Source: Cheilinus undulatus
Lineage: Eukaryota > Chordata > Actinopteri > Labriformes > Labridae
Direction: 5' to 3'
NCBI RefSeq assembly: GCF_018320785.1
Contig: NC_054881.1
Coordinates: 22,320,275 to 22,384,274 of the forward strand
DNA length: 64,000 bases
Shown here: piece after piece, positions 20,072 through 50,185 of the stretch
Layout: the number at the start of each line of letters is the position of its first letter
Position numbering within the stretch: the first letter of the stretch is position 1
Notes under the pieces: model-generated
The model's database searches: none
What the model was told of the DNA's origin: nothing
Seen by the model: only the letters and a program-made list of their open reading frames with translations
Position numbers and translations under genes: made by a program

Positions 20072-21065
20072 GAATGATAATCTCCTGAGTGCAGTGATGA
20101 AGAAAGTTCTTTGGTCTAATGAGACCAGAATGGTGCTTTTTGTCCATCAGACAAGACGCCATGTTTACTGGACACTAAACTCAGCACATCACCACAAACA
20201 CATCCCCACTATGAAGCACGGTGGTAGCTGTCACATCCCCTGGTTGAGTTAGTTAAGTTTTATTTTTCCCTCATGTTTCCTGTCTTGTCATTTCCTGTTT
20301 TATTTTGTATACTTACCTTGTGTCTCTTTTCCAGATCATTCCTTCCTGCCCATTCCTACCTGTTCTCTGCGTCTGTAATCACCTCAGGTGTTTCACCTGC
20401 ATTGATTGTCTGAGTGGCTGCACCTGGGGATCCTTGTCTGGTTGTCTTCCCTCTCCTTGTGTATTTATACCATTCACTCCCTTCCCTCTATGTGAGATCG
20501 TCTTGTTCTGCTACCCGTGAGCATTACTTACGAGTCTTTATTCCTGATAGATCCTTATGTTTGGTGACCCAGTTTATAGTCCTCCGTTTCTGAGTTTTTG
20601 TCTACCATATTTTTGTACTTTGCCTGTCCTGATTGACCTCGTGTGTACCGAACTTGTTTGATTAAACAGATTGAAACTTTTTCCTGGTGTCCTGAGTCTG
20701 CTTGTGAGTCCTTTACTTGGCATTTTGTTACAGAAGCAGCATCATGCTACAGCTGACCCTGGAAGGCTTGTAAATGTAGAGGGTAAAATGAAGGGGAATC
20801 TCATTCAGTGTGCAAGAGAACTACTGCACCTTGGGAGGGGAATTATTTTCCAGAAAGACAATGACCCCGAAGCATACAGAGAAAGCTACACAGAAATGTT
20901 TTAAAGACAACAAGGTGAATGTTTTGGAGTGGATGAGTCAAAGGCCAAAGAATTTGTGGCTGGACTTAAAAAGGGCTGTTCACACCCTATGAATATTTAT
21001 GCAGTCACTTATTTTACACCACATATTTTTATCTAATGTTTATATTAAAATGATATTGTGGGAAA
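20072..21065 (+). mobile_element. Tc1-like transposon, degenerate, split by a solo LTR
   Basis: The left part (20,072-20,228) carries the AAAGTTCTTTGGTCTAATGAG and CATCACCACAAACACAT blocks of a Tc1 transposase gene. The right part (20,738-21,065) resumes with AGCATCATGCT and carries a CAGAAAGACAATGACCC block (the QKDNDP motif), then [11 protein letters not shown]. The usual D-L-N-P-I-E block is only partly recognisable. The same family occurs at 30,110-31,126 and 49,315-50,185. The element is inactive and older than the LTR inside it. Confidence 0.8.
20229..20732. mobile_element. Solo LTR of an LTR retrotransposon (fossil)
   Basis: A 504-base block beginning TGTCAC and ending GTTACA interrupts the Tc1 copy exactly where GGTAGCAGCATCATG would be continuous. 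Flanking pentamers GTAGC (20,224-20,228) and GAAGC (20,733-20,737) are a near-identical 5-bp target duplication, as expected of retroviral-type integrase. No internal region or second LTR is present, so this is a solo LTR left by recombination. The family (Ty3-like or other) cannot be told from the LTR alone. Confidence 0.75.
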
Positions 21066-21716: not shown

Positions 21717-22593
21717 CTAAATGTTTTGATAATAGAACTTAATTCATTTTCCTGAAGGTTCCTTTACTTCTGCCTGTTTAAAGGCTGAAAAACTGTACAA
21801 ACATTTTGGTTAAGTGGTGTGCTATGAATGCATGCTAAATCAAAGTCCAGATCATACACAGTTGATTTCCATGATGATTTAAACAGCTCTACAAGCTACT
21901 ACTGCTCTAGACTGAATTTGTAGAATTTTATTTTGCCGCACATTTGATATCAAAGCATTTGTTTTGGCCTTTTGTTGCATAGTATTCTCATTTGCTGCAT
22001 GCTTCCGTTGATGCATTTGTATGTGAATGTGCACGCTTTCTCTAATTTTGATTGATTCAACCACTGTACAATTCCCCTTTAACTAATAGTGGTATGATTC
22101 TCTCAACTTACTCCAGCCAAAACACACATGAATAAAAGGGCAAAGTTCTATTTAGACATCTGATAAAGCTGAACTGTTGAGCAACATCAGCACACACATT
22201 TTTATGCTGTGAAAGAAAAATAAAGCAGATTTTTGGTCTTTTACAGATATATTTTTATTCACCATCCACTCTATTCGTCTTAACTTTTTGTCCAAACTGA
22301 AGTTTACTTGTTTTGGCTGAGTGGTCCTCAACAACAAATATTTAGATTTTTCTTGTATGACTGAAGTCCAATGTTTCTTATCAAGTCAAAAAACAACCAG
22401 AGCAAGATCATTTTGTCTTTTTCTTGTAATTTGGCTGTAGTGGTAAGAACATGTTGGCAACATGGCACATAGAGGTCAAGGCTCAATGCCCTCACTGGGC
22501 TAACAGGACAGGAGGAGTACACGAAAGTGTGAGGTGATGGTTTAACTTTCAGTCCATTAACATTTCAGACGACCACAGAGAACTACAGACAAG
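21717..22593. other. Upstream region of the single-Kunitz gene
   Basis: AT-rich and without a coding frame. Just before the start codon, CATTAACATTTCAG|ACGA (about 22,557-22,574) has the form of a 3' splice site, so a 5' UTR exon may lie further upstream. The ambp start codon is likewise preceded by TCTGTCACAG|ACGA. No TATA box can be assigned with confidence. Confidence 0.35.
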
Positions 22594-24456
22594 ATGAAAA
22601 AAGTGGTGATTCTTTTTTCTGTGCTGATTCTGGTCTGGACATGGACCCTCCAGGTGCACAATATGGAGGCAGATGATAGTGATGATCAGGTGAGCAGCAA
22701 AACATTTCATCTGTTTCCATAAAGCCAATAACTGGAGGTAGTAGTATATTCAAAACATGTATTTTAAGTTGTGATTGTCACTTTCCTGATACAGAAGGAG
22801 AGTAATGCTGCAGCTTCTGAAGCTCACTTCAACAAATCTGGTAAGAAACTTTCTCATTTAATTAATTTTCACTATGGTGCAGTTATAATGTGTGTAGTAA
22901 TATGCAAATACGTACGTTGCACGTATCAATCAATCAGTCAGTCAGCCTTTATTTGCATAGTGCTACTTCATAACCAATGCAAATTATTGATGTAGACCAA
23001 ACATGTATCCACCATGAGCTCAGCTCTAAGCAGCATTTAGCAACTTTAAGTGGCAAGGTCAAACTTCCTTTTACTGGGCAGAAACCTCCAGCAGAACCAG
23101 CAGTCATCTCTCAAAGTTGTGTTGGGGTTGTAAAGGAAAATGTAGATGAGGAAAGAGCAAACACAAGAAGAGAAAAAAATGTTTAAGTTACCAGTTTGGC
23201 TGTCTTGGACATAAATCCTTCATCAATTTAAGGGGTCTTGACCAAGGGTTTGGTTTTTAATTCGTATGAATAACTTGCTCCACGTCAAATTGTGAGTACT
23301 CAAAAGATGAGAGAAGGCAGCTTCCTTCTCCCACATCACATACTACACTGAGAGGATTGCTGCTTTGTATCTGCCCAAAACTGAGGAAGACACTGCCTCA
23401 TCTAACTCCATTGGATCCTTCAGAGGCGCACACAACTCAGAGAATTCCACGACTGATGACAGCTGCTTCCAGTGCTATTTTCAGTTAGCACAGGCACAAA
23501 TTGTGGAGGAAAAATTTGCTTCCCTGAGGGGGTTATGCTAACTCAAGACAATCCGTCTTCCAATGAGCTCCTTTTTATTCCTGTGCCAGAAGAGCCCGCA
23601 CATTGTGTCATATGGCTCAGGGTAGCCATAGACAGACATCACAAATTTCTCCTCCATTTTCCAGTTGAATGAACCTCCGCCCCCCCAGGCTGGTCCTTCA
23701 GAGATACTTTATGCTGATTGGCCATCGTGGCCAATCATGTACCAAGAAGTCTGCACATCTATTATCATCTCTCTGTCACTTGTCACCTGTCTCTTATTTT
23801 CCTTTACTTGAGGAGTGTTTTCAGTCAAACCAGCACTCCACATGCTTTATTTACTTAACAGCATTCTCCTTGCTTTCTTTAAATGAAATTCTGACCTAAT
23901 ACAGAAGAGAGCGGTTAAAAAGGGGCAACAACCCAGACTAGTCTGGTTCATGTATTTATGTATTCCAGCATGTTCTAAACAGAGAAGAAGCCGTTTGTAA
24001 TTCACAAAGAATGGGGTAAAATTTTCAGCACTTTATACAGGTATGTTAGTTGTATCAGTATTTAGGACACAGGCAACATTTTAGATGACACAGCAGGTAT
24101 TAAATAAGAATTTTACACCAGATTTGTTATACTTAAAATTGTGACTCTGGACACATGTCCTTTTGGGTCTTTAAGCTTGGAAGATTTATATGTCAATGTT
24201 TTAGTTAGGCCACTCCAGTCAAAAAGTCTAGTCTATTGGCTATCTCTTTTCTGTTTCCTTTATTTCTCTTCCTATAGAAGTTTGTGTGATGGCTTCAGAA
24301 AAAGGTCCTTGTAAGGCGCACATAGAACGTTTCTACTACAACTCCACCACCAAAACCTGTGACATCTTTGTCTACGGAGGCTGCGCGGGCAACCTGAACA
24401 ACTTTGAAAGTACAGAGGAGTGTATGAATAATTGTCACACTGAAGAAGAGGACTGA
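22594..24456 (+). CDS. Secreted single-Kunitz-domain protease inhibitor (AMBP-derived)
   Basis: Three exons (22,594-22,689; 22,795-22,840; 24,278-24,456) with GT/AG borders encode 106 residues. Residues 1-20 are a signal peptide, MKKVVILFSVLILVWTWTLQ, close to that of AMBP ([20 protein letters not shown]). Residues ~21-48 are an acidic, Ser/Ala-rich linker. Residues ~50-100 form one complete Kunitz/BPTI domain with all six Cys, a YGGC core and a GNLNNF motif. The reactive loop GPCKAH puts Lys at P1, which in this family favours trypsin-like proteases. The Kunitz exon enters in phase 1, like both AMBP Kunitz exons, and most resembles bikunin domain 1 (YYNS, TC, YGGC, NNF shared). It lies tail-to-tail with ambp. 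I infer a partial ambp duplicate that lost the lipocalin half. The furin-type site and the Ser-Gly attachment site are absent. Confidence 0.88.
22915..23190. repeat. Dispersed fish repeat in Kunitz-gene intron 2
   Basis: TCAATCAATCAGTCAGTCAG, then CTTTATTTGCATAGTGCTA, then CATCCACCATGAGCTCAGC, then CAAACTTCCTTTTACTGGG. A partial relative sits at about 63,850-64,000, sharing the TATAGACC.AACAT and CATAAACTCAGC blocks. This is a common teleost repeat. The open frame in it is not a host gene. Confidence 0.6.
23191..24277. other. Rest of Kunitz-gene intron 2; nothing recognised
   Basis: About 1.1 kb of intron with no additional Kunitz exon, no transposon terminus and no simple array. It ends in a good polypyrimidine tract before TTCCTATAG|AAG. 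Confidence 0.5.
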
Positions 24457-24715
24457 AATGTAAAGCACATTTCACACATCTTAGTTCAGTCTAAGATGGA
24501 AAAATGGTCTGACTTTTTTAATCTTTGCACTCTTTGACAGAAAACCAATCTCTGACGACAACTGCTATCTGAGCTCTTTTTGGGTGCAGAGCAATTGTGG
24601 GTCTGATTGTGAAAACCTGCTCCTCGATGAGAAAACACAACTAAGAGATAAAGCTTGAGGCATTACATTACATTTTATGTTTAAGCACTCAAAAAATGTG
24701 GAGAATGAGATTACC

Positions 24716-24721
24716 AATAAA
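24716..24721 (+). terminator. Poly(A) signal AATAAA of the Kunitz gene
   Basis: A canonical AATAAA lies 260 bases after the stop codon, followed by a T-rich stretch (GATTTTTTTGTTGCT). It is the first good signal downstream and gives a short 3' UTR. Confidence 0.65.
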
Positions 24722-25172
24722 TCAACTCACTGATCTGAATGATTTTTTTGTTGCTCATCAATGTTAAAAATGATGTTCTGGCCACACAACGCATCCATCT
24801 ACAACTGTTATACTCCTCACACGCTGCCATAGAAGAAATAAGGGTTCAAAAACAGAAATGTTAAACAGCTTTATCTTAAAACATCTATGTTTTAAATGCT
24901 GATATTTGTTTTTGCATCTTGTTAAAAGATGTTGACAGGAAGAATTAAGCAGTTTAATTCCAGTTTATTAGTTCTAAACATTGTGCATAAATCTTTTCAC
25001 AAATGCACAGGACAGTAAAATAACTGGTAAGAAAAAGTAGATGAAAGTAAAATAAGATCAAATAAAATTCATAATGAATTTGTTATAAAATATCAGAAAT
25101 ACACGTGTATTTATTTACAGGCAAGGTGACCCATAATACAAAATAATTGTATTTATCTATGCTGTAATAAAC

Positions 25173-25270
25173 TAACCTTACACGCCAGATGGATTTGTTT
25201 CACTCATCCACCAGTGGATTCGCCAGTGAGAAACACAGAAACGAGCGTATCCATCTGCTTTGCAAGGTTA
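25173..25270 (+). mobile_element. 98-bp internally deleted MULE-like MITE
   Basis: It starts TAACCTTACACGCCAGATGG and ends CCATCTGCTTTGCAAGGTTA, the two ends of the family, with only TTCACTGG-type end sequence between them. Flanking nonamers GTAATAAAC and GTAGTAAAC match at eight of nine bases. A 9-bp target duplication with short imperfect terminal repeats fits Mutator-like elements. Almost the whole interior of the 582-bp copy at 46 kb is missing. Confidence 0.8.
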
Positions 25271-25489
25271 GTAGTAAACAACCTTCTAAAAAAGGTAAAC
25301 CCCTTTTCTTAAAACAGAATTACATTTCTTTTATGTTAACAATGTGGATAGATGCATTAAACTAAACCATTAAGTAATGCCAGGCTTTGTAGATAGGTCA
25401 TGATGTGCTTAAGTGTCAGAATGCAAGAAAAATAATGTAGAAGAAACTGAGACCATTATAAGGGAAAAATGATTAAACAACTGCAGTGT

Positions 25490-26010
25490 CAACAAAAAGT
25501 TACCAGTGGCAGAAATTGGCAGAGAGAGTGGTCACAAGGGTTAAAAGTGGCAAAAATGTGTTACAAGTGGCAAAAAAGGGTAAAAATTAGGCACAATGGG
25601 TAGGAAAAAGTGGTTAGAAAGTGGCAGAGTTGGGTAAATAAGTGTGGAAAATAGGTTTCAAAGTGGGAAATGGTAAAAAAGTGGCAAAAAATGGGTTTGA
25701 AGAGACACAAATGGTTTAAAAAATTGGTTTGCAGTCGCAAAACTTGGCAGAAAAGAGTGGTGAATGGGGTTAGAGGTGTAAAAGTGGATTAGAAGAGGCC
25801 AAAACGTGGGTTCATTTTGGCAAAAATGGTTCAAAGTGTTATAATGTATTTTAAGAGGCAATAAAATGGCAGTGTCAAAAATGGATTCAAAGAGGCAGAA
25901 ATTAGTGTAAAGTCCAAAAAGTGTCAAAATTAGCAGAAAAAAACAGGAAAGGAGGTTAAAAAGTGGTGAAAAGATGTTAAAATGGGCAAATATTAGTATT
26001 TTTGACATTA
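25490..26010. repeat. Degenerate minisatellite, AAGTGGCAAAAATGGG type
   Basis: More than 20 imperfect copies of a motif near AAAGTGGCAAAAATGGGTT, with variable spacing, purine-rich on the plus strand. It is the reverse complement of the family at 187-745. The minus-strand frame across it is compositional. Confidence 0.7.
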
Positions 26011-26663
26011 CAACCTGACAAAAGCTTGACACATGTCTAACTCTACAATGGGGTAACTGTTTGAAAGATGCCGGCACTAATGCTACTGATCAAACGCATA
26101 TATCGATCAATATCATCAGTAAATAACAACCTGGACAGGCCCATTGACTGAGTTCTTCAGGGGCTCGGGTGGAAATGACCAATTCATTGGTAATTTGCAG
26201 ACCCTCAAGCTACAATAAGTAGATTTTTTTCACTGATATGGCTATTAATATAATAAATATAAATAAAGTTATTATTATTATTATTATATTAAATAAAAAT
26301 TACTGTTCCTATGCTATTTATATTAATAAGGGTATTTTTATTATCTCAAATATTTCAACAGTTTTCAAACCAAAGAAATTCCAGGCTTACCCCTGTGATG
26401 CAGAACTCTGACCTCTTTTTGAAATCAAATTGTTGTTTTACTATTTAGAAAAAACCCCTCCTGGAGTGCTGGTTTTGATGGACTGAGTCCTCAGTTCAAA
26501 GCTCATAGTAGCCACAGATGTGGGCAGAGCTGAGCAGCGCTGGCCTCTCCTCATATCATGGTGTTCTGATTGGTCATTAGAAGTCTGGTAGATATTATAA
26601 ACCACAAGTAAACGAGAACAAGAAGAAAACAAGATAAGAAACAGACAAAGACAAGCATGGTGT
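26011..26663. other. Intergenic, between the Kunitz gene and ambp; nothing coding seen
   Basis: It includes a (TTA/ATT)n stretch at about 26,262-26,290. A 118-codon minus-strand frame (26,441-26,797) has no recognisable domain and overlaps the ambp 3' UTR, so I do not call it. Confidence 0.5.
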
Positions 26664-26669
26664 TTTATT
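26664..26669 (-). terminator. Poly(A) signal of ambp
   Basis: TTTATT on the plus strand reads AATAAA on the minus strand, 176 bases beyond the ambp stop codon. It is the nearest canonical signal. Confidence 0.6.
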
Positions 26670-26844
26670 TTGGATCTGTAATGACACAAGTTCACATATT
26701 GTTTCTGTTGATCTGAAAACATCTCCAGATTGCAAGAACATAATATGTTGACTCTGTAACTCAGAATTTCTTGGAGGAGGACCCTAAGCACCCCCATTTA
26801 CTGTATAAGCTTAGTTTTTGATTGAAGCGCTGACATGTGCTGAT

Positions 26845-29800
26845 TCAGTTTGCCTTCAGGAGCTCTTCTTCTGCAAAAGAGGAAAAATACATCTGTTATA
26901 TGTGGGTGTACATTCGTTTTGTTTTAGTGTTGTATGAACAAAATCAAGAGTCCAGGGAGTTTTAAGAAAATCTCTCGCCGATGTTGTAGATATTCCACAA
27001 GCTGGATCATAAATGAATGTTTGTGCTATTTCCACACATCTCCAAAATCTCACCGTCAGCAGCGACTTTTGCGACCCCGCAGTACTCCTTACACTCGGCC
27101 TCGCTGTAGAACTTGTTGGCTTTGGTCGGACAGAAGTTCGGTTTGTAGGCCACACACACACCCACGGTGGAGTCGAAGGCCCACATCTGTGGCTGACCAG
27201 TGCAGGGTTGGGCCTCCATGGGCAGACGGCATGCGGCTGGAGAGAAACAATGGAGAAGTTTTGATATTTCCATGCTTTTCTGGACGATCCTTATTTTTCA
27301 AGCTTGGCAACATCTTAATTTCAGTGGATTTCACCAGGCAGAGGCCCTTTACAGCAGTGACAGTTATAGTAATAGGGGTGGGAAGCCAGTTAACATTCCT
27401 TTTGTTACAACAACTTTTACAGGTTTGACAGTTACATTTCTGCTTCTTATTGATGGGTGGATGAAGTCTTAAAGCTTTAGAGCTGTATTTATTAGTACAC
27501 TATAACAGTGACACCTGCTGGTTAATAATAATTACAACAGCTTTATTATAGCCAGCATGAAGCACTGCAGGACCCCACAGATATTCACAGATTTAGTCTA
27601 ACATTTGAGAAAAAAAAGTCCAAGAAATCTGTGTCTTAAAATCAATATTTTTATACATTTTTTCTTCAGATATGCTGCATCCTATATTGATGATTTAATG
27701 CAACAAGTTCTCCCTGAAAGCCCTTATACTAAATACTTTCAGAAATAACACTGATGACCCATTTGGTGAAGTTATTTACTCCTTAATTTTTGGGCTCATC
27801 TTAATAAGTTTTATGATTAGTATTTTGTGCAAGTTTACAGTTGCCATAAGGGATGATATTTGTAAAATATCTACACAGTCATAGTAGTATGAATAAGATT
27901 GCCTGCAGCTACTCAACAGACCAAAATGTGCTACTCTAAAACAAAACAGCAAACAGTGACATATAGAGATATCTATCTGAGAGTCTGTGGAAACAGTCAC
28001 TTTATCAACACACCACTTGGCCCTCAAACATCCTCTGTTTCACTTTCATTGCCAAGGGGCCTAAAATATAGCTACTACAAGAAAGGAAAAGTTAAATATG
28101 AGGTCCACATCTTAAATCACCTTCATTGTTTAAAATGTGGATTTGATTGCGATTACAGAGTTGAGAGTGAGGAAAATGGCCTTAAAAATAGATTTTGGTT
28201 GGAAAAAAATTCCCCAAGTACTCCTGGCCCTAACAGCGAGGTCAAGGCCCACAAAAGCCACAAACTGTCTTTATATCAAGCAAATTACACAAGGAAGCTC
28301 TGGAATAATTTGCCTGAGGAAATCAGATCAGCTGACTCTGTGCTTTTTTATGAGTTGCATTTAAAAAAAATATTTTACCAGATGGCTTTTTGTAAGTTTC
28401 AACACAATGTGTCTTTAAAGTATCTGTTTTTCCTTACTTTTTGTATTTCATTAGGTTTGATGCACCAAGCTGGTGTGTAAACAAAATGGTCCCAATGTTT
28501 TTTGTGTGTTTTTTTTTAAAGTTGTGTACAGCACCTTGAAACATCTGTTTGAAAAAGCACCTCATAAATAGATTTATTATTGAAGATTTACACTGACCTA
28601 CTGAAACAATGAATAGGTGGATTACTGTGTTGTAAAATGGCATGCAATGAGCAAAAAAAGACTTAGAATAGTTGATTTACTTGCTCTGATTACTTTTAGC
28701 TTCATGGGCAAGGGCCTCAATTTGTTCTCCACTGCCTCTAAATAACTTAAAATCCCCCCTTAGTTGCTTTTACTCCAGCAAAACTTACACCATCGGCTTG
28801 GGAAAGCATTCTCTTTCCAAAAAACCTAACAAGAGCGCAAGCCAATACTTTCCACTCTGATTTCATCATAAAAAACATGCGCTACCTGGAGCTGGCAGAG
28901 CAAATGTTGATTTGCATTTTGAGTTATATGTCCCTGGAGTTAATGTTGCTGTTATGAAGGATTTATTCATTATTCATCTTGGCCTAATATTTTACATCAC
29001 ACGATTGTGACCTTTTAACAGCAGTGTATAGATTTTTTTTATAGCCCCTGTATGTATTTTCAATTAATTGAATCCAGAAAACTTGAGTACACATGGAAAG
29101 TTAAATAAATTAATTTACTGTTGCTTAAAAAAACAGGGTGTGTGCAAGTGATGCAACTTTATTTAAATAATGACAGCTCTCCAGTAGAGTACTTGTACCC
29201 ATCTATAGTTACAAAATGTGGTATTTAAAGCTCTGTGAAAAGACTGCAACTTATTAGTTTAGCTGATGAAATGCTTACTTGGTATGTTCATCACTATATA
29301 TAAGTTTGTCTTGCACTAACAGAATCAACTGGTAACAGACGGACTTCGATGATATTTTATAATAATTTGATAAATGGTGTAGTTTTTATATTGCTCCTCA
29401 CCCTCTGTGCGACATCTCTGCAGACAGTCTCTCTCAGTGTCAAAGTTGTTCTGGTTGCCCAAACAACCTCCGTAATTGAACGTCTGACAGGTCATGGCGG
29501 AGGAATTGTAGTAGTAACGAGGGTGAAGCCCGAAACACGGTCCGGTCTCTGGTGCTGCGTGACAAGCCTCTATGTGAAGACACAGATTGAAACAAAGACA
29601 GGAGACACTCAGCTGTAGCAACCATTAAAATCTTGTATCTTCCATTAAAAGTTTGAGTATCAGAGCATCCTGTTATTTAGGATTGATCACTTACCTGCTG
29701 AATTGAAAAGAAGACTATCATCACCAGAGCCCTCCTCTTCTGCAACGTTTCTTCTTCTCCGCTGAATCACAGCCAAAGACAGAGTCAGGTTGAGATACAA

Positions 29801-32800
29801 AGGCATGTGAACCAAAATTATTACAAATAACCCTGTGAGATAAACCCTTTTAGAGGTTTTCGATATCAGAGAATTTAGGTTTGAGAAAGAGTTGAGAGTA
29901 CCTGAGGCTGAGGTGCCGGCTCTTCCACCACCTCTCCAGGAACACAATCACCTACAAAGAAATGAAATGAAATCAAATGATTTCAACATCACTTCATCAA
30001 TTCAACAATGTAGCATGAAGTATGTGTCATATTTTCTCTTTTCTTGGGTTATCCTTTTTGTCTTCAGAACAAGATTTAAAAAGGTTAATTTCCTTTTTTA
30101 AAACATAGATTTGAGCTTGACTCTCTTTGAATGCATTAAATATGTCTCGAGTCATTGTAGTTGTCCAAGCAACTCAGAGAAAAGATTACTGAAAAGTATT
30201 AGTCACAGGATGGGTAAAAAAAATTCCAAGTCACTGAACATCCTCCAGAGTTCAGTTAAGTCTGTCATCAATAAATGGAAAAACATATGTCACATGTATA
30301 AATCAGGCTGTCCTCACAAACTGAGTGACAATGCAAGAAGACTAGGCATCCATGGTCAAGCTGAAGAAAGTTCTTTGGTCTGATGACAACAAAATGATGC
30401 TTTTTGGTCATCAGACAAGACGCTATGTTTGGCAGACACCAAACACTGCACATCACCACAAACACACCATCCCCACTGTGAAGCACAGGGGTGGCAGCAT
30501 CAAGCTGTGGGGATGCTTCTCATCAGCCAACCCCTGGAAGGCTTCCAAAGACAGAGAGTAAAATGAATACAGCAAAATATCGGAAAATCCTGGAGAAAAA
30601 TCTTACTCAGTCTGCAAGAGAACCAAAGCTTAGGAGAAGATTTATTTTCCAACAAGACAGTGACCCAAAGCATACAGAGAAAGCTACACAGAAATGTTTT
30701 AAAGACAACAGGATGAATGTTCTGGAGTGGACGAGTCAAAGCCCAGACCTCAATCAAGAGAGAATTTGTGGCTGGATTAAAAAAGGGCTGTTCACATCTG
30801 ATCCCTGCACAACCTGACAGAGCTTGAGCAGTTTTGCAAAGAGGAATGGAGTACAATTGCAATGTTCATATTTGCGATCCTGATTGAGACCTACCCACAC
30901 AAACTGAGTGCTGTGATTGCAGCCAAAGGTGACTCTCCTAAATACTGACTTGAAGGGGTTGAATATTTATGCTCTAACTTATTTTATTGACATTACTTTG
31001 TAGAAATCTGATTTGACTTTGATACGAAGCAAGTATTTTGGTCAAAAAGAGCCATGACTGATTTATAAAATCAATAAAAGGTTAAAATATCCAAGGGAGT
31101 GAAAACTTTTTATAAGTACTGTACAGCCTTTACAAGGGTGAAGGTAAAAATGAGAAAAGCTTTGAAAAGTAACACATCAGTTGAATGTCCTGTATTAGAC
31201 ACTATCGTTCTCATCACATAAAGTACTATACACCTACTGATTACTTTATTAGGCACTAACAACCACTGTGACTGTGTCATACCTTTGTCCTGCTTGATGA
31301 CAATAGTGTCATCACTCATCCCCTGTTGTCTGACCAGTGTTTTGAAGTCTTCCAGTACAGTGTCTCTAACAGACTTGGTTCGACCTGATGAGGAATAAAT
31401 AAAATGTCATATTTATGATGTAAAGCAGGCCTAGCAAAAACATGTACTGTACATCTGTGAAGTGTCTACTCACTGTAGAGTTTAACTGAGGTGCTCCCCC
31501 CTGATGATTTCTGTTTGACCATTATCACAATGGCGTACTCATTGTAGTTTGTGTGAACCACGTAGGCATCAACATCAGCCGCCCACCCTTTTTAAATGAC
31601 AGGGAGAGAAACATGGCTGTTACAGAAACTGAAAAAATGAGTGAAAGTACAACCGTAAAATCCCACTGAAGGAGACAGAAGAGACACACTTGTGATGTGG
31701 TAGAAGAATCGTCCTGGTGTGGAGGTCAGCTCATAGTCTCCAGACATCTCCCTACATGTGCCATGTCTGCATAAACACAGAAAAACAACTAAGGAGTGGA
31801 ATTAACAATGAGTGCAGGATGTCTGTGTATACTTAAGAGAATAGTTGCATGGTTCATACACCTTTACCACGGTCAAACTTAATCAATCACTCCAAGGTGC
31901 TTTTTTGAGCTTTCCAGCCCCTCACAACTGTGGTAAATTCTGTATTTATACAAATATACTGAAACTACAAACTCACTTCCTTATCATGTAAGGACAGGTA
32001 TTACGCTATTTTTTTTCCTCACAATAGTCTATAGCTAGATGAAAAATTAAAGGAAAACCCAACAAAATCAATATAAAACTGGAGCAAATGCTCACCGTCA
32101 TTTGGTGAAAGGCAAGTTACACTTACAATTTTATAGTCATAGGTTACGAGTACACTTTTAAACATTCTATAATTTCAGATATTTTCAGAGCTCCTACAGA
32201 GTTTTAAAAATCAAATTTAAGTCCTTTTCAGACCTGAACTGAGAAGAATTAAAACCACCGTTTGAAAGGCACGTGATTTATCCAAACCAGGGCTGAATTT
32301 TCTCTTTTAATGTACTGTTAATGAAATGTCAGATGGTGTAGGGAAAGTAATTTGATTATTTCTAGCAAATTTAATGCCTCTATTCTATCAATATGCTGTA
32401 TAGTGATATTTATCATAACACATTTTTGCAGGCATGCTGAGCTGATTCTGAACAGTTAATACAGGTACCCTGCGTACAGGCTGCACTGCTGTAAATGCTG
32501 TTAATTGCCATGTGAACAGGCATATACACATAAATAATGATGAAAATCAGATATTTTATCACCTTTAATTTCAAAAGTCCATTCAAAAACTTTTAAGGAC
32601 TTTTCAAGGATCTGCATGAGCCCTGTTTTTAATATTTCAAAAGTGATAAGAGAGTATGTCATTACATGTTTCAATTTTTCTATGTCATATGAAGTAGTGA
32701 ATAAATGTGCGACGTATGCCCTTGTCACAGACCTGAGTACGGTTAGAGTTGTTTGGATTTTGTCCACAGTGCTTCCTCTCTCCAAAACCAGTTTACCGAT

Positions 32801-33648
32801 GGCTGCATCTCCCCGATGCTGTCGCATATGAGGACATGTACTCGCCACAGCAACATCATGCCAAGTTCCCAAAAACTGATTTAAAAAAAAGGACATAAAA
32901 CCATGTATCAATGATTAACATAATAGAATTAAGGCTGTTATTGAAATAGAAAATGATGGATGTTTGATTTACACATTTGCATATGGAGACAATAACAGGA
33001 TATGGCTTGGTTAAACCGTCCTATTTATTGTTATTTTTAAAAATTGCTTGTTGGTAAAAAACAAAACAAGATTTATAAAGAATCTAAAATATTTTTAATG
33101 AGAATTATGTGTTTAAAATCCCTTTCAATAACAGCAATCCTAACAAGGAAAGACCACTCAGCATGTTTCACTTAAAAACAGACATCAAACCCTCTACCAA
33201 CAGAAAAATGTAGCTATTAGAGATGCGTACAGCATATAAAATAACCCTCTATGCAGAGGATGTTATACTTGCACATGTCTAATAAATGCACACTCTTGGG
33301 TTTTACAAATCAATTCCATAAAGTTTGAGCTGCCTAACAGTCATAAATTTTTAGTAAAAAGCTATAAATTTACAGGAAATAAAAGGATGGGAAAGAGGAC
33401 ATTTCGGCTGTAAAAGAGTGCATTTCTGCATCTGTGCCTCTTGACATTTTTAACAACAAATGTAAGATAGATAATTGTTCATAAAAGAAGAAAATTAACT
33501 TGACAAACTTCATTAAGAGGCCTCTTACCTGGCTCAGATCAAAGTTCTCTTGGGTGGGGAACAGAGGTTCTGGGAGTACAGGAAGCCCCTGAAGGGTCCA
33601 TGTCCACCCCAGGACCAGCAGGGAAACCAGAGTCACAGCTTTCTGCAT
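26845..33648 (-). CDS. ambp: Protein AMBP: alpha-1-microglobulin/bikunin precursor
   Basis: Ten coding exons, all with GT/AG borders and consistent phases (33,529-33,648; 32,733-32,875; 31,690-31,766; 31,474-31,587; 31,283-31,384; 29,902-29,951; 29,695-29,761; 29,402-29,569; 27,054-27,236; 26,845-26,870), give 349 aa; the human protein has 352 aa and also ten exons. Residues 1-~20 are a signal peptide. Next is the lipocalin, with G-x-W (GTWHDVA), the free Cys in STCP, and the Cys pair in HGTCRE and GDCVPG. RRRR (~203-206) is the furin-type cut. EEEGSGDD keeps the Ser-Gly chondroitin site of bikunin. Kunitz 1 has six Cys and P1 Phe (GPCFGL). Kunitz 2 has six Cys, P1 Thr (QPCTGQ) and PNFC in place of YGGC. 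In vertebrates this is a liver plasma protein: A1M binds heme and radicals, and bikunin joins inter-alpha-inhibitor. Introns carry a Tc1 copy and a LINE end. Confidence 0.95.
28230..28585 (+). mobile_element. LINE 3' fragment in ambp intron 8
   Basis: The plus strand encodes [20 protein letters not shown] and EIRSADSV, the R-L-W-N-x-L-P-E-E-I-R motif found at the C-terminus of many fish non-LTR reverse transcriptases. It is followed by a tail with TGTACAGCACCTTGAAAC and ATAAATAGATTTATTATT. It lies antisense to ambp and is a dead 5'-truncated copy. Confidence 0.65.
30110..31126 (+). mobile_element. Tc1-like transposon in ambp intron 5, degenerate
   Basis: Segments of a Tc1 transposase are visible in order on the plus strand: the helix-turn-helix part ([11 protein letters not shown]), the [16 protein letters not shown] block, [20 protein letters not shown] with the second catalytic Asp, [14 protein letters not shown] (E-R in place of I-E), and a C-terminal [11 protein letters not shown]. 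They lie in shifted frames, so the gene is dead. The 3' terminal region ends near AAGTACTGTA and matches, inverted, the left terminal region of the copy at 49.3 kb. Confidence 0.85.
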
Positions 33649-34227
33649 CCTGCCGTCTAATCGTCTGTGACAGAATTAAAATACAAGACACATAAAACAA
33701 GAAAAGTTTCAACTTATTGCCTAATTTTTTTTCACTCCCCTCTCGACGGGGCGATGACCTGAGTTTTGTGTGCAGTTGCCCCCATGCTCACTCCATCAGC
33801 CAAACAAGTAACAGAGCAAAGTCCTCCCTCTCTGTCTCTCGCTTCAGGCAGCTGACCACTTCAACATTGGACTTTTGGCAACATCAACAAATCAATAAGA
33901 GTGATCATCTAAAACACTAACGGGTGAAAACCACATGATATTTTGTCGTGTACTGTGGATATTTTCCAGGTTTTAGTTCTATTTTTCATTTTATTCAAAG
34001 ACTTTATGATACATTATATATTATGTTCTTATCAAAACTTCATGAATTTCCCTTGTTGACCTTGGCAAGGAGGTGTTAGGAATGAGCTTTCTACATTTAA
34101 AGTTCTGGTGAGAAATTATTAACTACTTATGAAACAGAGCAAATTGACACCGATGCATCTTCATGACAAACAAAAGCAAACAAGACAATCGGCGACAAAA
34201 ATGTCGATGCTATTTTCAGTGCACATA
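33649..34227. promoter_or_regulatory. Probable 5' region of ambp
   Basis: Read on the minus strand, TTCTGTCACAG|ACGATTAGACGG precedes the start codon and could be a 3' splice site of a 5' UTR intron ending near 33,668. No TATA box or liver-factor site can be assigned with certainty, so the promoter position is inferred only from the gene. Confidence 0.3.
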
Positions 34228-34731
34228 CAGTGCTTAACAAATTTATTAGACCACCCTAACCCTAACCAAAGTAAGGTTTATGCCACAGCTGCCCTAAATT
34301 AACAGCATCGGTAATTACCAAAATCATTTTTTATGTTTCTGCAATAGTTAATACACCAATATGTAGAAGCTCTTTAACCAAAATGATATTTTTAATGCTG
34401 AAATATAATTATTATTGTTATCCATGAATTTTCAAATTTACTGATTAACAAAAAAACTGAAAAAATAGTAAAGCACATTAATATTTCTTGATTAATATGT
34501 CAAATTATAGTTATTTACTTGCATTACTGAACAGAAAAATGAGTTTAAGTGGTTGAATGTTATGCTTGATTAATTTCTGACTTCACAGAGAAGCCCAGTG
34601 AACCAGCTCAAATTTGAAAGAAACATGGAGAGCTCACTGAAAATGAAAGAGTCTGCATTAAAGCACTTCATGATGCTGGATGGTCTTTGAGACAAATATG
34701 ACAGGTGGTCTAATAAATTTGTTAAGCACTG
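34228..34731. mobile_element. MITE with perfect 28-bp terminal inverted repeats
   Basis: The 28 bases at 34,228-34,255, starting CAGTGCTTAACAAATTTATT, are the exact reverse complement of 34,704-34,731. The interior (about 450 bases) has no long frame but contains GCCCAGTGAACCAGCTCAAA and related words. This is a Tc1-type non-autonomous element. Perfect ends suggest it is younger than the other repeats here. Confidence 0.85.
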
Positions 34732-37700
34732 GATATAGCTATAATGCCAGGGTTAGGTTTTTTTTTTTAAAGTAATTTACAGCACACTAAAGGAATTTTT
34801 CACTGAAATGATTCCCCATGGATAAGATTAATCAAAGATTAATAAAAATGCATCAACATCATTTACCTTAAATCTTAACAATTCCCTTAACAATACTTTC
34901 CTTCCATACGCCTTGAAAAACACGGTCTTAATAGGCAGTCAGTGCAAACAAGAACAGAGAAGTCCATAAGTTAACATGACGGACAGTCACAAAAACAGGA
35001 TAAAGCGATCAAAAGTGTGGCTTAATTTCTCAAAAAATTATGCAAAAAGTGCAAAATCACTGATTTCATGCAAGGCATGAATCTTTTTGCACAGAAACAG
35101 TTCATTGTCAACAAGATTTCCTTTTATTGTTATACATCCAGAGATCTAGGATCCAGAGACTAGTTTTATGTTTATTCTAGTTAAAGAAAATGAGCAGTAG
35201 TATTGTATTCTAATTCAAGTTCAGAGATTGAAGATCCAGAGATAAGTTTGTTTTAAGTGAGACATTTCCAACAAAAATAAGTTTTTTTGTATATTTATCA
35301 TGTTCTCCTCCCATACACTTGATGTTTAACATTTTTAGTTATCAAAACTGTTCATTATAGCACTAATTAAAGTGTGCAAGTCATTGATTCTCACTGAAGC
35401 TGGCATACATTGTGCTCGGTGTCCAGAGAAAAGAGACTCAATACAATTTGAGTTGTTATTAGTGAAAACCTATATAGTTTACTTTTTATTAAAACAAATT
35501 CACAGGAAGGAATTGATAAAGAATTGAATTGATAAGAGCAATCTATAATGATATTGATATGGCATCCATATCAACAAAATCTTATCCAATCCCATAAACT
35601 CCTGTTGCTTTCTTCCTCATGAAATTTTTCAACATGTGGTAACTGGTGTTATACTGCCACCTACTGGTCGCTTCTTAGCATGGTAAACTTGCCGTTGCAG
35701 CTTGTTTACAGCTATTGCTTGTTTAATTAACTGCTTTGGTGGCTGACACACAATAAAAAGGGGAATAAATGGAAAAAAAGGAAGTAAAAGGAAAAGGACC
35801 CAACTGGGAAAAAATGACTTTCAACACAAAACGGAGACCTTCAGACAAACTGAGCATGATAAAAAATGTTAATCCACATTAGTTTGCAGCTCTGGACTGG
35901 ATGATAGACACTGACCAAACACCAGTTAGTTTAAACTCTGCCACCATTACAGTAGAGAAATATTGTTAAACAACTTACCTTGGAAATATGTTTTCCCCTT
36001 TATATACGCTATTTATCTGCTCAAAAGTCAGAACATACACTGAAATTCATATCAAGCCACCAAACCCTAAATTCTCTGTTGGTGTCTCCCTGTTGCCGTG
36101 CCTCATAATTACACTTCCAGACATCTAAGCTAACGTTAACCCTCTCTGGCTCATCCCCCATCATTGGTTTAGCATTTTGGCTGGTTGCCCACTGGACCTG
36201 TCCCCACCTGTTGCTCATACATAATTTAAATGACATTTAGAAAGAACAAAAAAACAAACTGCAGTCAAACAACCTACCGAGTGTTGTTCAGATTAATAGC
36301 TCTAAAGTTATTACTGTTTTAGGATGTGTAGTACCTCATGCTCCTCATTTCTTTTGGATGACGGCCTAATGATATTAAAGGAAGTTGTCCTACAAAGGCA
36401 GACTTTGGTTTAGTGTGCTAATCCATTAACACAATTACAAAGACACTGAGCCGTGTAAACCAGACAGGTCCACTTATCACTAATCTGGTGTTGTTTACCT
36501 TGTGTTGTGAAGAGAACAAATCCTCTGGTTGAACAAACTTGATTGAATCACTCCTCTCAGTTAGGAGAAATTCAGTGTACAGGGACTAAGTCACTGCATG
36601 AGAGCAATAAGATATTAATTTGTAATAAAATAGAGATGTGACTAGACTGAGACTCAAAGTTGCTTATCATAAGTTAGAGATCTTGTTCAGAGATTCATTT
36701 GTAGGAAAGGAGTCGTTCATATTGAGAGACTCGTTCACTAAATTCACTGAAGTGTGACCCGATCCTTCAATGAGTTTCTCAAATGAAAGCATCCTTAATT
36801 AAAAAAAAAGATTTTGTGGGACAGTGTACCAAAAATGAGGAGATACTTTATTTCTAGCTAACATACATTTGAAACACAGTAAATTACAAAAACAAAAAAC
36901 ATGTTTAATCACATTTAAACTTTCACTTTCAACTCTTAGTGCAGCATTTTTCAGGCTTCATATATTCATGGTTTTGGTATTTTGCTAAGAGAAACACGCA
37001 TTTTAATGTATTTCTTTAGCCTCTCTATACAAATGTAAACCTAGCTACAGAGCACATGCTAACACTGGATCAAAAAAGCACAATTAGACAAATTAATGTT
37101 AAAAATAGTGAGTTTTTTGTTTGTTTTAAATTACTATCCGCAGGTAGCTGATTATAGCTTATTATTTGCTCACCTTGTTCTCAATGAACGTCTCTCTCTC
37201 CAGCCCACAGTCGAAATGAAAAGAGCATTATGAAGCAGCATGTAGGTTCACAGTGGACGGGAGTACGCAGGTGAAACTCAGGGCAGGGGGTATGAACGAC
37301 ACCGTGAACAAATCTTTTAACCGACTCTTTTTTAAATTAATGAATTATAACAATTAACTACACTAACAACTGCTAGGCTTATCTATAAATAAACGTCAGA
37401 GATAATCAACCACAAAACATAATATTTTTTTTTTTTTAGAGATTTTTGATATAATGATGGAGAAATTTGGAAAATCTTCTGAATGATTAAATAATTAATT
37501 GTGATTCAAAGTGAGGACCATGATGAATAATCGTGCTTTTGAGGCATTTTTAAAAATTCTTTATTGACTGATAAACACAAAAAAGATACACAGTATACAG
37601 TGATAAAGTGAACCTATACAATAATATCAGCAAACATATTTAACCTGAAACAAACAGTAAATGTTTGAAAAGGGACAGGATGAAGTTTATTTTATGTCTA

Positions 37701-38102
37701 ACAATTGATCACAAATATTAAAGAGGGGAAAATAAACAAGGCATCAGGAAAAACATAAACCACATAATGTTTGTAAAATGGGGCAGAATTAAACAGCCTA
37801 TCTGGTCATGCCCCTTTATTACAAGTTACACAGTATTGAATGTCCCTCTTTTGTGTTTGGTATCTTCTGGGAAAAAGTTATATTGTTAAAAATGCACTTT
37901 ACTGAGGAGCATTTCTGCACATTGTCTGCAACACTTATGAAGACTTGTGAAATGTGTTAGCTGCTGGTCTGTTCGCTGTACACTGCTGTTCTGCCCAGAT
38001 TAAAAGCCGTTAAAGGACTTTGTGCATGCTGAAGTGTTTTCCTGTAGGTCTTATGCCTTTAGGAGTTTTGTAAATACATGAGATACAGTAGTAAAAAACA
38101 GC
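34732..38102. other. Gene-free interval between ambp and the lipocalin-only gene
   Basis: About 3.4 kb of AT-rich DNA. No Kunitz or lipocalin exon remnant was found on either strand. A minus-strand frame at 36,021-36,236 has no known domain. Poly(T) lies near 37,425 and AT-rich low-complexity DNA at about 37,320-37,500. Confidence 0.5.
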
Positions 38103-38108
38103 TTTATT
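38103..38108 (-). terminator. Poly(A) signal of the AMBP-like lipocalin gene
   Basis: AATAAA on the minus strand, 206 bases after the exon-6 stop codon. Confidence 0.5.
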
Positions 38109-38313
38109 CTTTGGTATAAATTTTAAACCGCTGTCCCAGTATAAATGATGGGTGTGATGTTGCTTATCTTCTCACCAAACATCACCCCTTCATGAGCAGG
38201 AGCCACATCTGGCACCACTTTCCTTTATAACAACATGACAGATAGTTAATCAGAAAAAAATGGCTGTTGTATCTCAGAATATGTGCACAGAAAATGTATA
38301 ATCTTACCCTCGT

Positions 38314-40673
38314 TCATAATAATGCAGCAGGTACCTGTGGTTCAGTCGACACTGGCTTTGTCCTGACACCTGGTTCACAATCACCTGAAGGGAACATTTA
38401 ACCTCATGATTTAATTCACCAGCAGAAGAAGAGACCCGAAATCTTGCAGCTTAAATAGACCACTAATTTAGGAGGATGTGAGTCATGTGATTTGATTAAG
38501 ATGCATATCAGGTGTGAATCAGTGTGCTTGAGATTATCGGCTGAATTAACTTGCGAGCTTTGTTACATTTAATATTAAAATTAGGGCCAAATCCTTTGGT
38601 TGCTTTGGGGTCACTGGCAGGGAAATACGATTAACTGCAGGAAAGTGAAACACTTTATCCTTTGCTTCCGTGCTTGCTCAGATAACAATTCTGCTGAGAT
38701 GGAAGGATACTTTGCCACTCAAAAATTGGAGAAAATTAGTTATTTACTCCAGCATTCAAACAGGAAATTTCAGAAAACATGGGGTTCATTATTAAATACA
38801 TTCCAGACTCTATTGGTGCTATTTCACAACTCCATGTACTATTTGAATACTTTGGGCAGACTGATGGTGTGACAGTGTTTTTACAGTGTGTGTAGTGTGC
38901 TGGTAGAGACTGTTTATATTACGTTTCTGTAAGAGTATAGTTTTCTATATTTAATATCACTCTTATCCATGCTTGCTTTTTTTGTTTGAGATAAAGGAGT
39001 CAGCTGCTCTTACTTATGTCTGGTTAATTATTTTTGTAATGAAATTCCAGCACTGCACTTTTGTTTTATCATGAAAAAATTCAATAAAAAGATATTGAGT
39101 AAAAAAAGAGTGTGAAGACCAAATATCTTGTTTTTGTGCTTCCTCAAATTGAAAATAGGTTGGAAAGGATTTAGAAACCACTGTATTCTGATAAAAATTA
39201 ACATTTTATACAAAGATTCAACTCTTCTGGCATCGTATGTATGCATTTGTGTTATTTTTTGCACCTTTGCTCTGGTTTATGATGATATCGTCATCACTCA
39301 TTCCATGTTGTCTGACCAGCGATTTGAAGTCATTTAACACAGCAGAATCCACATTCATAGTTCGACCTGGAGACACAGAACATAAAATGGCATGAATATT
39401 GAAAGGGGGAAAAATATAAACAAAGTGATAGATTCAAACATGTCACTCACTAAAAAGCTTGGCTATTGTAGTTTTATTTCCTGATGGTTTCTCTGTGCTT
39501 AGCTGGATCATCTTGGCAAAATCAGTGTAGTTTGTATGAACCACAAAGGAATCCACATCCACCCCAAACCCTGAGCAGAGGAAAAGGAGTGATGAATAAA
39601 TTATCTGCACTAGCACAAGAAAAGAAAACAAACAAACAAAAAAACTGTGTCAATGAAGTGAGAAAGACATGGACAAACATACTTGCAACATGATGGAAGA
39701 ATCCTCCAGGAGTGTTGGTCAGACTATAATCTGTTGATGTCTGCTTACATGAACCATTCCTATATACATGTATGCAAACACAAGTTCTGCTTGAATTTAG
39801 TTCATACTTCACCTCTGTGTCTATGAGAATCAAAGCAAGGCTGACCTGAAGGTAGTAGAGGTCATGGTGAAGCTGTCCTCAGAGGTAGTTTGCTGCAGCT
39901 CCATTGCAACTATGACAGGATTTCCTCTCTTCCTCTGCATAAAGTTAGGGCAGGTAGAAATCACTGCTACTTCATACCATCTCCCCATGAACTGTGAGGA
40001 ACAGCGAAATCATTGGTGTTATAACATGACAAAAAAACAAAAGTGGCACAGAGGACACAGTGGCAAGGAAACAAGGAAAAAATGACAAGACAATAAACAA
40101 AGTAGAGGCATATAAGAGCAGTGGATGGTGTATGTTTAGTGGTATATGTTATGAGAGGAAAGAAATGAATAGAATATTGTTAATCCAAAAGTCACAGTGA
40201 AAGCTAAAGAGAAAAAAAAAAAGTTTGTTAATTTAATTATTACACTGGTTCTCTTGTAAGGATGATTTTTATTGTTTTAAAACCAGGGTTATAACCTCTA
40301 AATAACAGTGTTAATACATCAGCATCAAGGAGGAAACATTTACTCTTTACCATAAGAAAACAGTAAAAAAAAAAAAAACAATTCCGCTTAGTTCTCATTA
40401 GGTAACAAAATTACGGTTTAATGAGCAAGAATTTCTGAAAATAGTCACGTGATTTCAAGATGAAGGGGGTCGGAAAAATACTGTCATAAGAAATTTTACA
40501 CCACTTAATATTTGAATAATATTTGAAAAAAAATGTTTTAAAAACAAACTCACCTGGCCCACATCAAAGCTCTCCTGTGGGACTACAAGAGGTCCTGGGT
40601 CCACATGATTGGCTCTCAGGGTCCAGGCCGACCCAAGGACCAACACAGACAGCAGATTCACGACTCTCTGCAT
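38314..40673 (-). CDS. AMBP-like lipocalin lacking bikunin (alpha-1-microglobulin-like)
   Basis: Six exons (40,554-40,673; 39,846-39,991; 39,683-39,759; 39,451-39,570; 39,265-39,366; 38,314-38,384) give 211 aa. The ATG at 40,673 aligns with that of AMBP; the in-frame GTG upstream is not used. Exon 1 is 40 codons, as in ambp, and exons 3 and 5 are 77 and 102 nt, as in ambp. The protein has a signal peptide (MQRVVNLLSVLVLGSAWTLR), lipocalin motif GRWYEVA, the free-Cys motif STCP, the disulfide Cys in NGSCKQ and GDCEPG, SFVVHTNYTDF, and VRQHGMSDDDI. Exon 6 matches ambp exon 6 up to the CAG|GTAC donor, then reads into VPAALL and a stop. Splicing at that donor would instead add a short unrelated tail. 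No RRRR, Ser-Gly site or Kunitz exon follows. I infer a secreted A1M-type carrier from a tandem ambp duplicate. Confidence 0.88.
38580..39110 (+). mobile_element. L1-like LINE 3' end in intron 5 of the lipocalin-only gene
   Basis: The plus strand encodes EMEGYFATQKLEKISYLLQ, then NRKFQKTWGSLL. This resembles the C-terminal end of L1-type ORF2 (LEKI.Y.L...KF...W.P). It is followed by a 3' UTR-like stretch ending AATAAAAAG and an A-rich tail near 39,107. It is antisense to the host gene and 5'-truncated. Confidence 0.5.
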
Positions 40674-49314: not shown

Positions 49315-50185
49315 TTGGTTTAATAAATCAATCATGGTCAATATATTTGGCCTTTTTGACAAAAAAGAAAACTCTAAATGTCAGAGAAAACAGATTTCTA
49401 CAAAGTAATGTCAATTAAACAAAAATATGTTTGGTAAATTAAGTGACTGCATAAATATTCACCCTTTTAAAAGTGACTGACCAAATTTAACAGAAGTCCA
49501 GCCAGTTGGTAATAGTAGTTGAAATGGGAATTACCTGAGTGCAGTGAATGTGTCTCAAGAGACTGTTGTGTAAAGACACCTGTGTCTGGAAGGTCCAATC
49601 ATTAGTTCATCAGTATTCCTGGATACAATTACACCATGAAGACAAAAGAACACTCCAAGAAACTCAGAGAAAAGTATAATGAAAAGTATAAGTCAGAGAA
49701 TGGAAACAAAGAAAATTTCCAAGGCACTGAACATCCACAGAGTTCAGTTAACTTCATCAAGAAATGGAAAGACTATGTCATGCTTAAACCTGTCTAGATC
49801 ACAAACAAGAAGTGACCGAACAAGAAGGAGACTCGTGAGAGAGGCCATCAAGACACCTGTAACTACTCTGAAGGAGCTACAAGCTTCACCAGCTGAGAGG
49901 GGAGAGACTCTGCATACAACAACAGTTACCCAGGTTCTTCACCAGTCAAAGCTTTATGGGAGCGTGGCAAAGAGAAAGAGAAAGTTCTTTGTTCTGAAGA
50001 GACCACAACGGTGCTTTTAGGGCATCAGACAAGATGCCATGTTTGGCGGACACCAAACACTTCACATCACCACAAACACACCATCCCCACTGTAAAACAC
50101 AGTGGTGGCAGCATCATGCTGTGGGGATGGCCCTGGAAGGCTTGTAAAGGTAGAAAGTAAAATGAATGTGGAAATCTGAGAAGGA
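49315..50185 (+). mobile_element. Tc1-like transposon copy, 3'-truncated
   Basis: The left terminal region (AATAAATCAATCATGG, CCTTTTTGAC) matches the inverted right end of the copy at 31.0-31.1 kb. The transposase region is degraded: helix-turn-helix (SKALNIHRVQLTSS), an R-R-x-L-V-R-E segment, and GTGGTGGCAGCATCATGCTG as in family members. It stops after CCCTGGAAGGCTTGTAAAGG, before the last catalytic block. It is 5' of the PTGDS-like gene. Confidence 0.8.

Follow-up and report, generated by a model that had tools for sequence, protein, structure and literature searches.

A window of 64,000 nucleotides from the fish Cheilinus undulatus (NC_054881.1, forward-strand positions 22,320,275 to 22,384,274; contig C17 in a genome of 1.17 Gb) contains three complete gene models at one locus, namely a fused ambp gene, in which a lipocalin half is joined to two Kunitz domains, and two relatives that each carry a single half of the fusion. 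The two short genes are probably old local duplicates of ambp, one of which ends after exon 6 whilst the other has been reduced to the signal peptide, the linker and the first Kunitz domain. The models were rebuilt from the DNA, and all introns in all three genes are of the GT-AG type. Pfam recognises Lipocalin alone in the lipocalin-only gene, Lipocalin with two Kunitz stretches in ambp, and Kunitz alone in the Kunitz-only gene. An AATAAA lies 176 bases past the stop codon of ambp, 206 past that of the lipocalin-only gene and 260 past that of the Kunitz-only gene. The ten exons of ambp, and a flanking gene matching its exons 1-6, had both been proposed in a preliminary description of this DNA and are confirmed by the models, by the matching phases and by Pfam. 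The possibility that all three form one transcription unit was rejected: joint transcription is excluded for the Kunitz-only gene because it lies on the opposite strand, and the lipocalin-only gene has its own signal exon, stop codon and AATAAA.

The intact fusion, ambp, is a minus-strand gene (33648 to 26845) whose ten exons encode 349 amino acids. As expected of AMBP, the lipocalin exons 1-6 are in frame with two Kunitz domains in exons 7-10. The exons of the gene model are as follows.

33529..33648, minus strand: exon 1, signal peptide, 40 codons, ends in phase 0
32733..32875, minus strand: exon 2, with the equivalent of C34 inside it (also from the lipocalin alignment)
31690..31766, minus strand: exon 3
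31474..31587, minus strand: exon 4
31283..31384, minus strand: exon 5
29902..29951, minus strand: exon 6, where the lipocalin half ends
29695..29761, minus strand: exon 7, starts in phase 0, with an RRRR cleavage-type site and an EEEGSGDD glycosaminoglycan-type site
29402..29569, minus strand: exon 8, Kunitz domain 1, P1 Phe, pairs with human bikunin K1
27054..27236, minus strand: exon 9, Kunitz domain 2, P1 Thr, with NFC in the place of the GGC loop
26845..26870, minus strand: exon 10

The two Kunitz domains of ambp (K1 and K2) were placed in a protein tree of 52 rows and 55 columns, made up of 46 different domains of this genome and six from the PDB. K1 forms a pair with human bikunin K1 at 97/99, and K2 joins human K2 at 93/96 on a very long branch (3.77); the tree tool's own support mark is 95/80. 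K2 (27054-27236) is strongly diverged, yet its six Cys and its splice sites are intact. The linker retains RRRR and EEEGSGDD, which we take to be the human-type cleavage and chondroitin sulfate sites, and from these motifs the fused gene looks able to yield both alpha-1-microglobulin (A1M) and bikunin. Phase 0 marks both the end of exon 1 and the start of exon 7, so that ambp could in principle yield a bikunin-only product by skipping exons 2-6.

Also on the minus strand, the lipocalin-only gene spans 40673 to 38314, and its six exons encode 211 amino acids. Its intron phases are those of ambp exons 1-6 and, as reported in the preliminary description, exon 1 is 40 codons long in both genes (32 in the Kunitz-only gene). 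The modelled exons are these.

40554..40673, minus strand: exon 1, signal peptide, 40 codons, matches ambp exon 1
39846..39991, minus strand: exon 2, C34 kept (model and alignment)
39683..39759, minus strand: exon 3
39451..39570, minus strand: exon 4
39265..39366, minus strand: exon 5, 82.6% identical over 69 nucleotides to ambp exon 5 (model and blastn)
38314..38384, minus strand: exon 6, reads through the site equivalent to the ambp exon 6 donor and stops after VPAALL

With its stop in exon 6, the modelled lipocalin-only product is not co-made with bikunin. The donor-place sequence CAG/GTAC is still present in exon 6, where the modelled frame continues for six codons to the stop, and a splice from this old donor place to an unseen further exon is conceivable. 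Amongst structures in the PDB, the closest relative of the protein is human AMBP (2.3e-28), followed by prostaglandin D synthases (5e-12) and C8 gamma (1e-9). It shares 48.4% identity with the A1M part of the fish ambp and 31.9% with human A1M, where fish ambp and human share 41.4%. C34, C72 and C169 of human A1M are all kept. Of the other residues whose functional meaning is set out in passages of PMC7965949, the lipocalin-only protein keeps K130 and is without K69, K92, K118, H123, Y22 and Y132, whilst the fish ambp keeps K118, K130 and Y132 and differs from AMBP as described in being without K69, K92, H123 and Y22; the loop alignment is unsure in both cases. A genome search with the lipocalin-only protein, in which ten candidates were scored, returned 11 matches at E <= 1, all of them within this locus. 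This search missed the PTGDS-like gene next door and is therefore not sensitive.

The Kunitz-only gene occupies the plus strand from 22594 to 24456 and encodes 106 amino acids in three exons.

22594..22689, plus strand: exon 1, signal peptide and acidic stretch, 32 codons, ends in phase 0; 76.5% identical over 68 nucleotides to ambp exon 1
22795..22840, plus strand: exon 2, a linker of 46 nucleotides, phase 0 in and phase 1 out, like ambp exon 7
24278..24456, plus strand: exon 3, one Kunitz domain, P1 Lys, stop after CHTEEED; by DNA nearest to ambp exon 8

The gene had earlier been read as a signal-peptide exon plus a single Kunitz exon. Both of these are present, and the two-exon reading fails in having missed the linker exon between them. 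The multiple Kunitz domains of TFPI and TFPI2 are not found here: the model has a single Kunitz exon, and no further Kunitz exon was significant near the gene on the same strand (best E 0.28). The 106 amino acids contain no Ser-Gly glycosaminoglycan site.

The three genes are tied to one another by the likeness of their signal-peptide exons. In a chance test of 20,000 residue shuffles per pair, no shuffle (0/20,000) reached the score of the real pair for any of the three pairs. Over the first 20 codons the Kunitz-only gene and ambp have 46/60 bases identical, the lipocalin-only gene and ambp 43/60, and the two short genes 39/60. With blastn, exon 1 of the Kunitz-only gene matches ambp exon 1 at 76.5% over 68 nucleotides (E 1e-8) and that of the lipocalin-only gene matches it at 71.9% over 128 nucleotides (E 6e-12), so the relatedness of the signal peptides claimed at the outset stands; between the two short genes themselves the exon 1 DNA match is not significant (E 0.27). 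Chance likeness is rejected by the shuffles for every pair together with the DNA match of the Kunitz-only gene to ambp. As a control, the same comparison was made with the roughly 10 kb preceding each of the three Kunitz loci whose domains are closest in protein sequence. Amongst the matches listed no comparable DNA match was seen (best E 0.13), although the signal exons of these loci may lie outside the regions compared; at the protein level, one of the loci has a low-complexity repeat that scored 22 bits, where ambp scored 32 and the lipocalin-only gene 25, again amongst the matches listed. A genome search with the 96 bases of Kunitz-only exon 1 found only the exon itself and also missed ambp exon 1, and is therefore uninformative.

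The descent of the lipocalin-only gene was addressed with a tree of five rows: fish ambp, the lipocalin-only gene, the neighbouring PTGDS-like gene, human AMBP and one solved PTGDS. In this tree the lipocalin-only gene and fish ambp form a group at 93/91, and these two together with human AMBP form one at 98/98, so that its position inside the AMBP clade is supported, and the placement outside it that the preliminary description had named as contrary evidence was not found. An identity as PTGDS is rejected, since joining the gene to its PTGDS-like neighbour gives a p-AU (approximately unbiased test) of 0.0017. The gene could instead be an old unfused relative of A1M, one that diverged ahead of the fusion with the Kunitz half and was kept in fish, and this would agree with the passages of PMC8420045 that group AMBP with two fish PTGDS clades and derive it by duplication plus fusion, as well as with the lack of any Kunitz match at E <= 5 between the lipocalin-only gene and ambp. 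Such an origin is nevertheless unlikely, for it needs a tree in which fish and human AMBP join to the exclusion of the lipocalin-only gene, which is 5.3 log units worse and marginally rejected (p-AU 0.049), and it leaves the likeness of the fast-changing signal peptides of the lipocalin-only gene and fish ambp to be accounted for. On the grouping with fish ambp and the p-AU of the pre-fusion tree, derivation of the gene from the fused AMBP by loss of the Kunitz half is the likelier course and appears fairly well supported. It is very improbable that the two short genes are ordinary degenerate duplicates, one or both of them functionless (silent or pseudogenes). The long branch of the lipocalin-only gene in the five-row tree (0.93, against 0.14 for fish ambp) would suit such decay, but both short genes retain open frames, consensus splice sites and an AATAAA although the share of third codon positions identical to ambp is just 0.57 for the lipocalin gene and 0.51 for the Kunitz gene, and their first two codon positions are better kept (0.66/0.72 and 0.73/0.64, respectively).

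The descent of the Kunitz-only domain is less straightforward. The genome yielded at least 49 Kunitz matches, to which the counts below refer. When the DNA of Kunitz-only exon 3 was compared with the 48 others, ambp exon 8 came out as the best hit (E 5e-20; next 6e-14), and in a DNA tree of 38 rows, from which 11/49 were left out (ten of a cluster on contig C9 and one near-copy on C8), the Kunitz-only exon is sister to ambp K1 at 85/43. An N24 glycosylation site occurs in 3/49 matches, these being the Kunitz-only domain, ambp K1 and one TFPI2-like domain, and a C-x-T tail is found in the Kunitz-only domain and ambp K1 alone (2/49). The choice of N24 was prompted by PMC3426482, a passage of which names bikunin K1 amongst the few glycosylated Kunitz domains. 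Upstream of the two genes there is, in addition, a common 12-mer.

22364..22375, plus strand: 12 bases, AAGTCCAATGTT, 230 bases before the Kunitz-only ATG, common to the ambp upstream region
33863..33874, minus strand: the same 12 bases, AAGTCCAATGTT, 226 bases before the ambp ATG, from the upstream comparison

A match as long as this 12-mer arose in 0/300 dinucleotide shuffles when required to be colinear and in 1/300 when allowed anywhere; amongst real 300-mers of the window, 5/2476 had such a colinear match to the Kunitz-only upstream region and 7/2476 to that of ambp.

Against descent from ambp stand several results, most of which come from the protein. Four other Kunitz domains of the genome outscore ambp K1 (67.5, 61.4, 59.9 and 59.0 bits versus 56.6), human TFPI K1 and K2 score 60 and 59 versus 51 for bikunin K1 amongst solved structures, and the highest protein identity, 57%, is to yet another domain, C21:37123753. 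The 52-row protein tree places the Kunitz-only domain within a seven-row TFPI/TFPI2 set at 88/75, a lean that the preliminary description, which claimed an AMBP origin, had itself named as contrary evidence. On the DNA tree, a TFPI2-type partner costs 9.2 units (p-AU 0.317) and a four-row group of TFPI type 14.5 units (p-AU 0.25), and neither is rejected. In sequence, the linker exon does not significantly match ambp exon 7, and the N24 site, the C-x-T tail and the 12-mer were picked out after looking. For the lipocalin half, too, the support of 93/91 is below the tool's mark and comes from five rows. Two of the loci nearest by protein are probably tfpi2 and tfpi, judging by their three clustered Kunitz exons. 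Kunitz exons of TFPI- and TFPI2-like genes are commonly exchangeable phase 1-1 modules, and the Kunitz-only gene might thus be a chimera in which an ambp-type signal exon, the sole part of ambp descent, was joined to a Kunitz exon drawn from such a gene, as the protein scores and the protein tree would have it. We regard the chimera as rather unlikely, given that ambp K1 is both the nearest domain and the sister by DNA, that the N24 site and C-x-T tail are common to the two, that the gene adjoins ambp and includes an exon whose phases are those of exon 7, and that a protein tree uniting the Kunitz-only domain with both bikunin K1 domains, human and fish, falls short by only 0.41 log units and is not rejected (p-AU 0.478); joining it to ambp K1 alone costs 7.3 units (p-AU 0.351). 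Since the signal exon, the place and the phases are independent of the domain tree, descent of the Kunitz-only gene from ambp is held to be the likelier, and indeed likely but not proven. The AMBP origin first put forward is therefore favoured by the signal exon, phases, DNA and shared characters, whereas the protein tree continues to lean the other way.

An old series of local ambp duplications would then have left three genes. The intact copy presumably goes on encoding the fused A1M-bikunin precursor, whilst one copy on the same strand would have lost everything beyond exon 6 and now encode a secreted A1M-like lipocalin alone. A further copy, inverted, would have been pared down to exon 1, linker exon 7 and the exon of the first Kunitz domain, and would now encode a secreted single Kunitz inhibitor; exon 1 can splice in frame straight to exon 7 because the one ends and the other begins in phase 0. 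Both short genes appear to have acquired their ends by reading past the place of an ambp splice donor into a nearby stop. The introns and flanks of the three genes share only short matches (E 0.04 or worse), beyond which the exons alone align, and this pattern, together with the divergence at third positions, fits old duplicates under constraint. On this reading the duplicates are unlikely to be special to this species. The view that the fusion had been resolved into single-function genes, and that this was peculiar to the lineage, has accordingly to be revised: the intact ten-exon fusion persists, supplemented rather than resolved, and duplicates that look old, with introns that do not align, need not be lineage-specific. 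The separate regulation of each product envisaged with that view is conjectural.

The specificity of a Kunitz inhibitor is set by its P1 residue, according to a passage of PMC3426482. The P1 regions of human bikunin are GPCMG and GPCRA, and those of the present ambp are GPCFG (Phe) and QPCTG (Thr), neither of which has a basic P1. In ambp K2 the GG before the fourth Cys is also replaced (NFC), with six Cys remaining. Human bikunin thus differs from this ambp in having Arg and GGC at the second domain. In the Kunitz-only gene the corresponding sequence is GPCKA, giving P1 Lys, and the GGC loop is intact; a basic P1 is found in 21/49 Kunitz matches of the genome, six of which have no readable P1. 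The lack of a basic P1 in both ambp Kunitz domains, and its presence in the Kunitz-only gene, is new in this analysis. The Kunitz-only protein would likely inhibit trypsin- or plasmin-like proteases. With P1 Thr and an altered loop, the bikunin of this animal would have lost trypsin-type inhibition via K2 and the neighbouring gene could substitute, such that the trypsin-type inhibitory site may have moved to the split-out Kunitz-only gene. A strong form of this idea is opposed by a sea anemone Kunitz inhibitor with P1 Thr that inhibits trypsin with a Ki of 7.4e-8 M, as given in a passage of PMC3407930. Having no Ser-Gly glycosaminoglycan site, the Kunitz-only protein would not be expected to join inter-alpha-inhibitor. 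The lipocalin-only protein, which keeps the reactive Cys34 and the C72-C169 pair, would be expected to act as a reductant or scavenger without bikunin. As a tentative possibility, labour may have been divided between the genes, with the bikunin scaffold, trypsin/plasmin-type inhibition (Kunitz-only, P1 Lys) and the A1M redox role (the unfused lipocalin with its reactive cysteine) each residing in a different one.

Why a single precursor gives rise to both A1M and bikunin was described as largely unknown in a 2021 review, and the fused arrangement as preserved in all species with a described AMBP (passages of PMC7965949). The fusion and both of its unfused halves side by side offer a direct test of why the two proteins are co-made. 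If the halves are expressed, and are made and folded without their partner, then neither product as such would need the fusion. The changed reactive sites, moreover, predict that this bikunin has protease targets different from those of mammalian bikunin.

In its general plan the present ambp is the AMBP gene described in PMC7965949, passages of which give ten exons, the lipocalin in exons 1-6, bikunin in exons 7-10, C34 and C72-C169. The motifs of the basic cleavage-type and glycosaminoglycan-type sites are likewise shared. Fish PTGDS-type lipocalins resemble the lipocalin-only gene in being neighbouring six-exon lipocalin genes, one of which comes next in this cluster; unlike that neighbour, with which it is not placed, the lipocalin-only gene keeps C34. 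The passages covered of PMC8420045 report just one AMBP group for fish, with two PTGDS clades of fish next to AMBP, and contain no description of half-genes. The single-Kunitz inhibitors PTI, CTI, ELP and SPINT3/4 share with the Kunitz-only gene a signal-peptide exon and one Kunitz exon, as described in passages of PMC3426482. They differ from it in that their Kunitz exon is second and is followed by a short C-terminal exon as third, whereas here a linker precedes the last-placed Kunitz exon; the same passages state that no ELP/CTI orthologue was found in fish. TFPI and TFPI2 have the nearest Kunitz domains by protein score, but they contain three of them, and no ambp-like signal exon was seen, amongst the matches listed, in about 10 kb upstream of two of the loci. 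In Lates (akame), Table 2 of PMC11346364 lists a "Protein AMBP-like" on LG09, a best-hit name for a coding sequence of 273 bases over 1.25 kb that is among the top 30 polymorphic genes. Compared by size alone, it fits the Kunitz-only gene better than a lipocalin or the fusion, and it may be a partial model. Amongst the titles and abstract beginnings of the matches listed, with subscription papers mostly outside that scope, no description of single-half AMBP genes in fish was found. Automatic "AMBP-like" annotations exist in fish, and no claim is made that these genes are unannotated.

Around the three genes, the cluster is continued on the minus strand at 43445-48894 by the further six-exon PTGDS-like lipocalin gene, which is without a C34 equivalent and joins the solved prostaglandin D synthase at 98/98 in the five-row tree. 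The right flank has, at 61777-62205 on the minus strand, an open frame matching long-chain fatty acid transport protein 2 in the PDB (4e-14), and 60034-60318, also minus, perhaps belongs with it, with a weak AMP-binding_C match below the cut-off (0.028). In the left flank (1-22 kb) no gene was recognised by eye in open frames of at least 60 amino acids, no other search for gene names having been made there. Stretches that look by eye like broken Tc1/mariner transposases lie at 2356-2733, 20055-20252, about 30300-31070 (within ambp intron 5) and 49600-50160; of the three frames scanned, which exclude that in intron 5, one gave a weak DDE_3 match below the cut-off (0.037) and two gave nothing relevant. 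A repeated motif, also seen by eye, with the unit GATGGATT...GTATCCATCTGCTTTGCAAGGTTA occurs at about 25183-25272 and 46030-46610 and is possibly a short mobile element. Elsewhere in the genome, twelve Kunitz matches are clustered at G000:C9:23300511-23313269, where two types alternate in the larger part and 6/12 are without the second and fourth Cys.

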